Source: Bryobacterales bacterium | Lineage (GTDB): Bacteria; Acidobacteriota; Terriglobia; Bryobacterales; Bryobacteraceae | Direction: 5' to 3' | Assembly: GCA_003164035.1 (NCBI GenBank) | Contig: PLRS01000065.1 | Coordinates: forward strand, 8,076 to 72,075 | Length of the DNA: 64,000 bases | Part shown: piece after piece, positions 4,831 through 56,954 of the stretch | Layout of the letters: each line of letters opens with the position of its first letter | Position numbering within the stretch: the first letter of the stretch is position 1 | The notes under the pieces: generated by a model | The model's input: only the letters and a program-made list of their open reading frames with translations | What the model was told of the DNA's origin: nothing | Databases searched by the model: none | Program-made: the position numbers and the translations under genes

Positions 4831-4917
4831 GGCAACCACTCCCTCGCGGTCGCGGCTCGGTTGCCGACCGCGTGTCCGAGCCTGTTACCGAGCCGCGACC
4901 GAGAGGGAGCGGTTGCA
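4831..4917. repeat. Inverted pair of REPs (BIME-like)
   Basis: Two REP copies face each other. The first is at 4831-4865 (GGCAACCACTCCCTCGCGGT...) and the second at 4885-4917 (...GAGAGGGAGCGGTTGCA). They are separated by 19 bp that resemble the spacer of the pair at 54677-54766 (shared CCGCGTGT). The pair could form one long cruciform or two small hairpins. It lies between the kinase stop codon and the start of the secreted protein at 4774, both on the minus strand. Confidence 0.75.
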
Positions 4918-54587: not shown

Positions 54588-54637
54588 ATTGGGATTGTAG
54601 CAGCCGGAGGGAGCCGGTGTAGCGTCCGGCTGGCCGG

Positions 54638-54801
54638 GGGTGCTTAACCGATTTACGGATTTCACGGTTTAGGCGCGGCAACCGCTCCCTTGCGGTCGCG
54701 GCTCGGTTACTAGTGCCGCGTGTTTTCGGTCACTTACCGAGCCGCGACCGCGAGGGAGCGGTTGCCGGAACGGATTTCCCCCCAGATCGGTTAAGTACCG
54801 C
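54638..54801. mobile_element. REP-containing MITE-like element, copy 2 (best preserved)
   Basis: It starts GGGTGCTTAACCGATTT and ends GATCGGTTAAGTACCGC. Between the ends are two complete REPs in inverted orientation (54677-54710 and 54734-54766), separated by TAGTGCCGCGTGTTTTCGGT-type spacer that matches copy 1. The order terminal repeat, REP, spacer, inverted REP, terminal repeat is the same in both copies. No gene is inside. It occupies the gap between the divergent MFS gene and the leader region at 54856. Confidence 0.8.
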
Positions 54802-54855
54802 TGGCCGGCAACTGACCGCTTCTTTACCTTTTAGCCGAATTATTTCATTCGAATC

Positions 54856-54884
54856 TTGACGAATCCACGGATTCACCATATAAT
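54856..54884 (+). promoter_or_regulatory. Near-consensus sigma-70-type promoter
   Basis: TTGACG (54856-54861) and a perfect TATAAT (54879-54884) are separated by 17 bp, the strongest promoter match noticed in the window. Transcription would begin near 54891 and run through the leader ORF at 54985 to the TonB-receptor fragment at 55288, leaving a leader of nearly 400 bases. Confidence 0.75.
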
Positions 54885-54984
54885 CCATGTACATAGTAGA
54901 CAAATCTCCGTGAGGCGCCGGTTGTTGGTTGTTTGCCCGGCGCGGCTCACCATTTTCGGTTGAGTAGAAGTTGGAGGATTGAGC

Positions 54985-55125
54985 GTGATTCGGAAGTTCG
55001 ATTCGTATTCCGATCCGGCGATGACATCGTCAGCATTTTTTTGCTCGTTGGCTGTCCGCCGGCTTCCCGCGCTTGAAGACGCGCGTAGTTTCGGATTGCC
55101 CCGCCGCTGTTGTTGTTGCCTCTAG
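54985..55125 (+). CDS. Leader ORF ending in four consecutive cysteine codons
   Basis: A GTG start at 54985 has an excellent ribosome site (GGAGG at 54973-54977, seven bases away) and gives 46 residues. It opens VIRKFDSYSDPAMTSSAFFC and ends FGLPRRCCCCL, the four Cys codons (TGT TGT TGT TGC) standing one codon before the stop. A hairpin follows 14 bases after the stop. This layout of strong promoter, short well-started ORF, run of one amino acid near the stop, and hairpin is that of a leader peptide whose translation speed controls downstream expression. Cysteine is the obvious signal. The downstream gene is truncated, so the present target may be lost. Confidence 0.6.
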   Translation: MIRKFDSYSDPAMTSSAFFCSLAVRRLPALEDARSFGLPRRCCCCL

Positions 55126-55139
55126 TGTCGTTTCTTAGG

Positions 55140-55165
55140 GCTAGGCACCCCCTAGCACTTTTCCA
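55140..55165 (+). promoter_or_regulatory. Hairpin after the poly-Cys leader ORF, possible attenuator
   Basis: GCTAGG (55140-55145) pairs with CCTAGC (55151-55156) around CACCC, followed by ACTTTTCC. With GG just before, the stem may extend by a base. It is short and its T run has only four T, so it would be a weak terminator. A pairing partner for the alternative, antiterminated state was not identified by eye. Confidence 0.4.
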
Positions 55166-55287
55166 CTAAGTGAATCGTGCAGTTAGCGGGTTCTCGATCA
55201 ACCGGTCGGGACGCGTGTCTGTGCTTTTCGAGTGAGCGAGTCATTGCTCTCGCGAGCCGGATTTGTGGTTACTGAAAGGAGACATAT

Positions 55288-55539
55288 ATGAGGTTATTTG
55301 TTTCAGCCCTTCTCGTTCTGGGTTTGGCATTGGCGCAATCTTTCCAAGGTTCCTTGCGCGGGCGAGTTCTGGATCCCAAAGGCGCTACGACGCCGGCGGC
55401 GACGATCACGTTAATTGACGAAGGTACAGCGGTCCGGCGGCGAACAATCACCAACGAGCAAGGCGAGTACACCTTCGCGGCACTGACGCCTTCCACTTAT
55501 GCCGTAACGGTCGAAGCGGCGGGATTCAGGCGGATCTAG
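55288..55539 (+). pseudogene. Truncated TonB-dependent receptor (carboxypeptidase-regulatory-like N-terminus)
   Basis: The 83 codons have a signal peptide (MRLFVSALLVLGLALAQSFQ) and the start of the carboxypeptidase-regulatory-like domain that opens acidobacterial OAR-type TonB receptors. It reads GSLRGRVLDPKGATTPAATI, VRRRTITNEQGEYTFAALTP and TYAVTVEAAGF. Intact members have about 1,000 residues; this stops at TAG 55539. The ribosome site AGGAG (six bases before ATG) is strong. Sequence after the stop does not continue the domain in any frame and instead shows the tail of another protein, so this is a deletion remnant. Confidence 0.75.
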
Positions 55540-55540
55540 A

Positions 55541-55681
55541 GGGCGCGGCATCGCGCAGAAGTTGTTTCCCGATCAGGAGACGTTCCGCAAAGAGGAGCAA
55601 CAACGTTGGCAACTGACCGCGGAGCACTGGGATCGTCCCCTAACTGAGTTGGATCCACACGGCGAGAAGGCGTCGAATTAA
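55541..55681 (+). pseudogene. C-terminal remnant of another protein fused after the receptor fragment
   Basis: In the next frame the text reads GRGIAQKLFPDQETFRKEEQ and QRWQLTAEHWDRPLTELDPH, GEKASN, and stops at TAA 55681. Its W/D/R-rich composition is that of a real protein end. There is no start codon. I do not recognise the parent protein. Adjacent position suggests one deletion joining an outer-membrane receptor's start to the end of a downstream gene. Confidence 0.45.
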
Positions 55682-55736
55682 CTGAATAGCCGTCAATAGC
55701 AGCAGACCTCAACACGAACAACCGAGGAGTAAACAT

Positions 55737-56954
55737 ATGAAGAAGACGTTATTACTTGCAACCGTTTTCGCGTTCGCGCCCGCGATTTGGGCTGAGTCCC
55801 TGGCGGGACTCTGGAACGCGACGATCACTGTCAGCGGAACTGAGATCCCTTTCAAGATTGAGTTTGCCGGCGATGGGTCCAACGTCAAAGGTTGGTTTTT
55901 CAATGGCGACGAGCATGAGAATTCAACCGGCGGCACGTTCGAAAACGGCTCGCTGGTGCTTCACTTCGACACCTACGCTTCGGTGCTGAAGGCGACGGTA
56001 AAGGACGGAGTCCTGGACGGCGAGTACAGCACGCGCGGCACGCCGATCCCCATCCATGCGGTTCGCGCCGTCCGGCAGCCCGTTTCCAATGGGAAGGCGC
56101 CCGACATCTCCGGCCTCTGGTACCTGGAGGGCGTCAAGAGTTCCAAGCACGACGAACAGGCATGGCGGTTCTTTGTGCGGCAGAAGGGGGCGGACGTTTC
56201 GGGTGCGATTCTTCGCGTGGATGGCGACACCGGAACGCTTACCGGCAGTTACAAGGACGGCAAGTTCGTGCTCAGCCATTTCTCCGGCGCGCGCGCCGCG
56301 CTGCTGGAAATCACGCCACAGAACGACGGCACGTTGACGATCCACCTGAGCGGCCAACACCATGAAGGGGCGATCACCGCCGTGCGGCCGGAGCAGGCGC
56401 GGGCCAAAAGTCTCCCCGAACCCGTCGACGCGGACCAGCACACGGGCGTGACGGACCCAACCAAGCCATTCGCTTTCAGTTTCAAGGATCTGAATGGCAA
56501 TCTGGTTTCCAATACCGACGAGCGCTTCCGAGGCAAGGTTGTGTTGGTCAATATCACGGGTAGCTGGTGCCCGAACTGCCATGACGAGGATGAGTTTCTC
56601 CCCGTGATTTATAACAAGTATCACGCAAGAGGGCTGGAAATCGTCGCTCTGAATTTCGAAGAGCCCGAACAGCTCGCCGACCCGGCAAGGCTGAAGACCC
56701 TGATCAAAGAATATGGGATCAGGTACCCGGTCTTGCTGGCTGGCGAAACACGCTCCGTCAAGGAGAAGCTGCCGCAGGCCAAGGATTGGGACTCATGGCC
56801 CACAACCTTCTTCGTGGGCCGCGACGGGCTGGTGAAGGCCGTACACGCCGGTTTCCCGAGCCCCGGCAGCGGCGATTTATACGCCAAAGCGAAGGCCGAG
56901 TTTATCGCGGAGGTGGAGCGGCTGCTCGCCGAGAACCAAACCTCGTCCCGATAG
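55737..56954 (+). CDS. Secreted TlpA-like thioredoxin-fold protein
   Basis: The 405-residue protein has a signal peptide (MKKTLLLATVFAFAPAIWAE), two beta-rich repeats (SLAGLWNATITVSGTEIPFK; ISGLWYLEGVKSSKHDEQAW; each ending in HAVR- and ITAVRP-like strands), and a C-terminal thioredoxin domain of the AhpC/TSA-TlpA type. That domain starts FRGKVVLVNITGSWCPNCHD, with the CxxC at about residues 279-282, and has LLAGETRSVKEKLPQA and WPTTFFVGRDGLVKAVHAGF. The CPNC site favours reduction of periplasmic disulfides. It lies downstream of the receptor remnant and could once have shared its leader-controlled transcript. Confidence 0.85.
   Translation: MKKTLLLATVFAFAPAIWAESLAGLWNATITVSGTEIPFKIEFAGDGSNVKGWFFNGDEHENSTGGTFENGSLVLHFDTYASVLKATVKDGVLDGEYSTRGTPIPIHAVRAVRQPVSNGKAPDISGLWYLEGVKSSKHDEQAWRFFVRQKGADVSGAILRVDGDTGTLTGSYKDGKFVLSHFSGARAALLEITPQNDGTLTIHLSGQHHEGAITAVRPEQARAKSLPEPVDADQHTGVTDPTKPFAFSFKDLNGNLVSNTDERFRGKVVLVNITGSWCPNCHDEDEFLPVIYNKYHARGLEIVALNFEEPEQLADPARLKTLIKEYGIRYPVLLAGETRSVKEKLPQAKDWDSWPTTFFVGRDGLVKAVHAGFPSPGSGDLYAKAKAEFIAEVERLLAENQTSSR

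Follow-up and report, generated by a model that had tools for sequence, protein, structure and literature searches.

In attenuators of the trp and his type, a run of control codons is followed by a terminator, with an alternative antiterminator pairing. Cysteine-specific attenuation is, to our knowledge, known from mycobacteria only, and the polycysteine-encoding leaderless short ORFs of these bacteria are said to be the subject of work by Canestrari et al. in Mol Microbiol in 2020. In the excerpted text of three papers, such ORFs lie just ahead of the genes that they control (PMC9031893, PMC13236596, PMC4633059), and the one from 2015 states there that, with its cysteine-rich uORFs, attenuation directed by cysteine would be described in bacteria for the first time (PMC4633059). 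In Bordetella, the CruR (DUF2946) uORF precedes bfrG, a gene for a TonB-dependent transporter, and, in the excerpted description, has 145 residues, a CXXC motif and a C-terminal RAPP motif (PMC9426467). For Acidobacteria, the excerpted part of a 2010 attenuation survey gives almost no predicted attenuators with an assigned function (PMC2965389). Our own literature search, which covered titles and abstracts and few subscription papers, gave, among the matches listed, no account of a cysteine leader at acidobacterial TonB loci.

The window analysed here is a stretch of 64,000 nucleotides from a Bryobacterales bacterium. An earlier note had described in it a poly-cysteine leader ORF with a near-consensus promoter, a GGAGG ahead of its start codon and a downstream hairpin with a short T run, all placed before a TonB-receptor start, and this observation is correct in all details (Table 1). 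The promoter hexamers, TTGACG (54856-54861) and TATAAT (54879-54884), are separated by 17 nt and agree with the consensus at 11 of 12 positions. The GGAGG, a Shine-Dalgarno sequence (SD), stands seven nt ahead of the GTG at 54985, the 46-codon ORF ends with RRCCCCL at the stop TAG (55123-55125), and the hairpin is made of GCTAGG (55140-55145) and CCTAGC (55151-55156), followed by AC and by TTTT (55159-55162). The receptor ATG is at 55288.

Table 1. Features of the leader locus in the window, and ANTAR genes next to related receptors (positions are those of the window unless a locus is named)
Feature	Position	Strand	Basis
Sigma-70-type promoter TTGACG-17-TATAAT	54856..54884	+	direct reading and promoter scan
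Imperfect dyad AATCCATGTACATAGTAGAC over the -10/start region, possible operator	54882..54901	.	alignment of five leader-bearing promoters
Shine-Dalgarno GGAGG of leader ORF	54973..54977	+	direct reading
Leader ORF, GTG start, 46 aa, VIRKFDSYSDPAMTSSAFFCSLAVRRLPALEDARSFGLPRRCCCCL	54985..55125	+	
Cysteine run TGT TGT TGT TGC	55108..55119	+	
Terminator-like hairpin GCTAGG-CACCC-CCTAGC, AC, TTTT, 14 nt past leader stop	55140..55162	+	
TonB-receptor gene cut short at TAG, keeping an N-terminal part with CarboxypepD_reg	55288..55539	+	
C-terminal tail of the small protein encoded downstream, in another frame than the stub	55541..55681	+	comparison with G213
405-aa redoxin / AhpC-TSA protein, possible surviving leader target	55737..56954	+	406-aa G213 counterpart, same order
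ANTAR gene	L127:723-1253	-	
ANTAR gene	L249:3839-4570	-	
ANTAR gene	L252:8898-9617	-	
ANTAR gene	L253:1115-2095		
ANTAR gene	L258:2056-2766		

The leader is real and recurrent and is most likely a cysteine-codon attenuator, one that seems to have decayed in this genome. The receptor of genome G034 was searched for across 257 genomes of the order and the upstream DNA was then read; the search scored the two best candidates per genome, and leader-bearing paralogues may have escaped. Short upstream ORFs ending in contiguous Cys codons occur in five genera, always upstream of related receptors: in the window and in G213, G034, G176 and G126. Their peptides have 22-46 residues, with CCC or CCCC at or close to the stop in the four non-window leaders (MSCEFHAGSGAAATSFAPVSVLAVRRSSAFASTRSSEFPACCCRL in G213, MWTVIDRLCSLPSPLSRRCCCC in G034, MSAAAQPEYGIRREAGSFASARCCCA in G176 and MSTDRRTDELVLPVRSSRGCCC in G126), and outside the Cys run those of the window and G213 alone are alike by eye. 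The closest locus to the window, G213:C44 (L257, minus strand), keeps leader, receptor, 162-aa small protein and 406-aa redoxin in the order of the window, and its receptor is itself apparently split by a frameshift. Its leader is the counterpart of that in the window, with an SD-like GGAG 8 nt ahead of the ATG; DNA identity between the two is 59% in the ORF, 50% in the preceding 5' UTR, 47% in the following spacer and 65% at the receptor start. This sole clear homologue keeps both the reading frame and the Cys run, the loss of either of which would, by the earlier note, have spoken against the idea. In G176, the leader start codon has no clear SD.

The acidobacterial setting proposed for the locus fits, named relatives of the G034 receptor bearing, among others, the names Bryobacterales, Acidobacteria and Candidatus Solibacter. 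A survey of named genomes examined 72 of 78 loci, some of them with less than 600 nt upstream (the other six, which begin at or close to the end of a contig, were left out), and gave two leader-bearing loci, apparently G034 and G176 themselves. As a DNA query, the window stretch gave elsewhere just short, weak matches (best E 0.007); the window leader ORF has zero Pfam matches, and six related loci gave no match to Rfam 15 at gathering score.

Like the mycobacterial polycysteine leaders, these are short upstream ORFs with consecutive Cys codons directly before genes, and two of the five, in G034 and G126, would begin very close to the predicted start of transcription. Unlike them, they belong to another phylum and have an outer-membrane TonB receptor as target, and in the window and G213 about 100 nt of 5' UTR, SD included, stand before them and a terminator-like hairpin after them; no sequence relation is claimed. 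The putative control-codon run, followed by a hairpin in three of the five loci, recalls the trp and his type, but the operon downstream is not biosynthetic and no antiterminator pairing was found. On balance we favour ribosome-mediated attenuation in response to the supply of cysteine, evolved for a TonB-dependent receptor operon. When Cys-tRNA is sufficient, the ribosome would complete the leader and the hairpin would end transcription, or, in a variant for G034, the stretch after the stop would pair with the receptor SD instead. In cysteine shortage, the ribosome would stall within the Cys run, expression of the receptor operon would follow and an organosulfur or thiol-linked substrate could be imported. 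If true, this second, phylogenetically distant case, on an uptake receptor, would make the solution look general and would offer a functional handle on acidobacterial TonB receptors.

TGT is used at 13 of 17 positions in the runs. In genes sampled from the five genomes, by comparison, TGT makes up 67 of 298 Cys codons (p = 3.5e-6), and elsewhere in the same leaders 31 of 81 NNT/NNC codons end in T (p = 0.004); these p-values overstate the difference, as the loci are related and the codons are not all independent. Because TGT, the rarer Cys codon, is favoured in the run, its preference points to a codon-level role. The attenuator-type reading given earlier stands in so far as the Cys run is kept while most of the peptide diverges, but the antiterminator that belongs to it was not found. 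Conservation at the codon level, proposed as a check, did not appear: mismatches between the window and G213 number 21, 16 and 19 at positions 1, 2 and 3, with no coding signature. Absence of coding constraint outside the run is expected if the control codons alone matter. It would also suit a chance ORF without function, since the codon-position changes show no purifying selection, and so would the destroyed receptor of this genome and the lack of a leader in most clade members. Against this stand the recurrence in five genera and the shuffle values, the string CCC-(0-2 codons)-stop arising in 0-0.25% of dinucleotide shuffles (five upstream stretches, 4000 each), and a chance ORF is therefore very unlikely.

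At the RNA level, perfect 6-bp stems begin 14, 16 and 14 nt past the stop in the window, G213 and G176, respectively. The stem is followed by TTTT in the window and G213, while the G176 hairpin is without a T run; in G034 and G126 there is no 6-bp hairpin near the leader stop. As to covariation of the hairpin, another of the checks proposed, GCTAGG/CCTAGC of the window and CCAGGC/GCCTGG of G213 share their position, differ at most pairs and both pair; the hairpin is absent from G034 and G126. Shuffles give a perfect 6-bp hairpin near the stop in 3-5% of cases, and the hairpin with TTTT in about 0.1% for the window and G213 (in the window test, 3000 spacer shuffles with a perfect 6-bp hairpin at most 25 nt from the stop, then TTTT). 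The general terminator scan places the window hairpin under its threshold and likewise does not list that of G213. From leader start to receptor start, the stability of the window RNA is not unusual (z = -1.04). No antiterminator is evident in the MFE folds, and by eye there are just complementarities of 4-5 nt; since no antiterminator was found, the direction of regulation is taken by analogy.

The predicted fold of G034 pairs the stretch directly past the stop with the receptor SD. When the RNA is blocked at the Cys codons or the stop, accessibility of the receptor SD is nearly unchanged in four of the five loci; in G034 it rises from 0.32 to about 0.5, yet the start codon becomes less open. 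SD occlusion as a general mechanism was set aside as weak, being confined to G034.

Where the mycobacterial leader precedes cysteine or sulfur genes, the loci here have a TauD-family dioxygenase in G034, a divergent Cys_Met_Meta_PP / cystathionine gamma-synthase-family gene with a redoxin nearby in G126, and a redoxin downstream in the window and G213. In G034 the order is receptor, small protein, TauD-family dioxygenase (PF02668) and MFS transporter. TauD-family enzymes are not all sulfonate enzymes, and the G034 score is far under the cut-off of the taurine dioxygenase equivalog (166 versus 313 bits); the Cys_Met_Meta_PP enzyme of G126 is also under its best equivalog cut-off (489 versus 513). 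The sulfur link suggested for the locus has neighbours on its side in two genomes, G034 and G126, but no cysteine or sulfur gene was recognised among the few neighbours scanned in G176. No sulfatase was found among the neighbourhood proteins scanned with Pfam. From these neighbours, a sulfur or thiol theme at the receptor loci is plausible. Several leaderless clade members have instead a redoxin-like protein, judged by sequence resemblance, and a 450-aa protein, which gave no Pfam match in the one case scanned.

Two other readings place the function in the peptide. If the Cys-rich peptide were a nascent sensor of copper or of the thiol state, with Rho or stalling controlling the TonB gene, CruR would be its model, being placed in the excerpted text at the head of an operon that includes a TonB-dependent transporter and relying there on a Cys motif (PMC9426467). 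The leaders here are likewise cysteine-bearing ORFs upstream of a TonB-dependent transporter gene, and a DoxX/HvfX-like gene (from a family of Cu-binding RiPP maturation, below cut-off) lies near the G126 locus. Unlike CruR, however, they are far shorter than 145 residues, and neither CXXC nor RAPP occurs in any of the five. Their cysteines come last in the peptide, hence would still be inside the ribosome at termination, and the TGT bias is unexpected for peptide-level sensing, so that such a sensor is improbable. The short peptide could also be the product itself, for example a metal-binding peptide or RiPP precursor that is exported and re-imported through the TonB receptor, a reading that draws on the grouping in G034 of a Cys-ending peptide with a TonB receptor, a dioxygenase and an MFS transporter. 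The likeness of the peptides outside the run, limited to the window and G213, the rare-codon bias in the run and the lack of a RiPP maturase recognised among the ORFs scanned all speak against it and make it most improbable.

In a tree of 32 receptors, 14 from the same family of bacteria form a clade (support 100/100) that holds all four non-window leaders. The Cys-run leader is thus present at 4 of 14 receptors inside the clade and at 0 of 18 outside it, two of the latter having just 50 and 247 nt upstream. The upstream check in relatives that the earlier note had proposed is accordingly divided: the Cys-run ORF is there in G213, G034, G176 and G126, but lacking at the other ten clade receptors, including that of G112, which is of the same genus as G176. 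Since the leader label needs four changes on the receptor tree, the leader is either old and often lost, or of several origins. G030, a clade member without a counted leader, has at the same place an ORF with a start codon that ends in VAPCCSL; this is perhaps a weakened form of the leader. A looser screen of the clade, requiring two Cys among the six C-terminal residues, yields in addition just G030 and an 8-residue frame in G116. The window's own genome gave 103 matches to CarboxypepD_reg, of which many lie in frames of receptor size; at the best-scoring 30 (one with just 152 nt upstream) no such leader stands, so that the idea of a general feature of TonB loci did not hold there.

The position of the promoter is conserved among the leader loci. 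TTGAC is found at -35 in four of the five, G034 being the exception, and promoter matches at the corresponding place are TTGACA-16-TATCTT in G213 and TTGACG-17-TATTGT in G126. The distance from the predicted -10 to the leader start is 9 nt in G126 and 12 nt in G034, and 100, 107 and 75 nt in the window, G213 and G176, the promoter scan picking slightly other -10 hexamers in G034 and G213 than those used for these distances. The leaders of G034 and G126 would begin near the inferred transcription start, as leaderless ORFs like those of mycobacteria do. In all five loci a dyad spanning about 19 bp covers the -10/start region; it is cleaner in G034 (GTCCATAGACAATGTGGAC), G213 (GTCCATCTATATAGTGGAC) and G126. 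It is a putative operator or repressor site, perhaps similar to those of the BlaI/MecI family. The dyad form GTCCAT-N-ATAGTGGAC at the transcription start is also partly visible in the leaderless members G116 and G112.

Genes for ANTAR-domain proteins, which are RNA-binding antiterminators, adjoin the receptor in five clade members, namely G034, where the gene is divergent, G111, G254, G106 and G149. Several leaderless 5' UTRs show, when read by eye, a pair of alternative hairpins that overlap, GAGnTTCC..GGAAGGCTC and AAGGCT..AGCCTT, and look as if the receptors might be controlled by ANTAR antitermination. These ANTAR genes and hairpins would accord with a leader that is a mere transcribed and translated spacer, with regulation by the operator-like dyad and by ANTAR-read hairpins and with an incidental Cys run. 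Such a role is unlikely, because five Cys runs stand at the same place, each with the low chance given above, and no ANTAR gene was recognised among the scanned ORFs around the window, G213, G176 and G126. For the attenuator, a wider history can be offered tentatively. Cysteine-codon attenuation may have arisen independently in Acidobacteriota, where it would gate a TonB receptor of the outer membrane and let Cys-tRNA charging switch the uptake of an organosulfur or thiol substrate, and the clade may mix Cys-leader and ANTAR-protein modes on one ancestral 5' UTR.

In the window, as the earlier note had recognised, the receptor is truncated and a thioredoxin-fold gene lies downstream. The ATG opens a stub of 83 aa with a CarboxypepD_reg domain, and the TAG that ends it is also found at G000:C48. 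The tail that follows corresponds to the last 46 residues of the small protein and shares 71% identity with the intact one of G213 (residues 114-162). Because G213 has the receptor and the 162-aa small protein in the same order, a deletion joining stub and tail seems to have taken the greater part of both. With the receptor reduced to a stub, the window leader is therefore probably either a relic or a regulator of the redoxin gene alone. A second decayed receptor related to the clade is present in the same genome (G000:C39:3826-5622, minus strand, L256); it matches residues 550-1149 of the G034 receptor at 70% identity and has an internal TAA.

Wider searches for Cys runs gave a number of candidates that were rejected. 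In the window's own genome and G126, the pattern TGT-TGY-TGY-(0-1 codon)-stop has 65 distinct true-stop sites, the known G126 leader left out, and three of them are free of an other-frame ORF of at least 130 aa: the window leader, L416 and L424. The latter two were rejected, being inside other reading frames, and with the window leader as the sole surviving site of this search a general Cys-run regulon was also rejected. Across the 257 genomes, R-CCCC-stop has 36 distinct true-stop sites besides the known G034 leader, and one of these is free of an other-frame ORF of at least 100 aa. This site (L490:1501-1552, in G001:C167), 33 nt ahead of a different TonB-type gene, was left uncounted as it has no in-frame ATG, GTG or TTG. 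Counts of the Cys patterns above the reversed-pattern control were not used, as most of the matches inspected fell in coding frames rich in CTG. In the survey of named genomes, three loci that came through a loose filter are not leader-like and were not counted, namely L265 (with CCC in a frame that stops 5 nt ahead of its match), L271 and L337; loose matches in the window's own genome at L053 (CCCR in a 4-residue frame far upstream) and L067 (CC-stop) were also left uncounted.

For positions 54600-55800 of the window, Rfam gives sub-threshold matches alone, all to an inverted repeat outside the leader. This long repeat, with arms AACCGCTCCCTYGCGGTCGCGGCTC, is located at 54676-54768 and occurs also at 1492-2067 and 4834-4914; the motif has six arms in the window and is present at two other loci of the same genome (L410 and L450). 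It is a REP-like or MITE-like element and the source of the sub-threshold miRNA and snaR matches.
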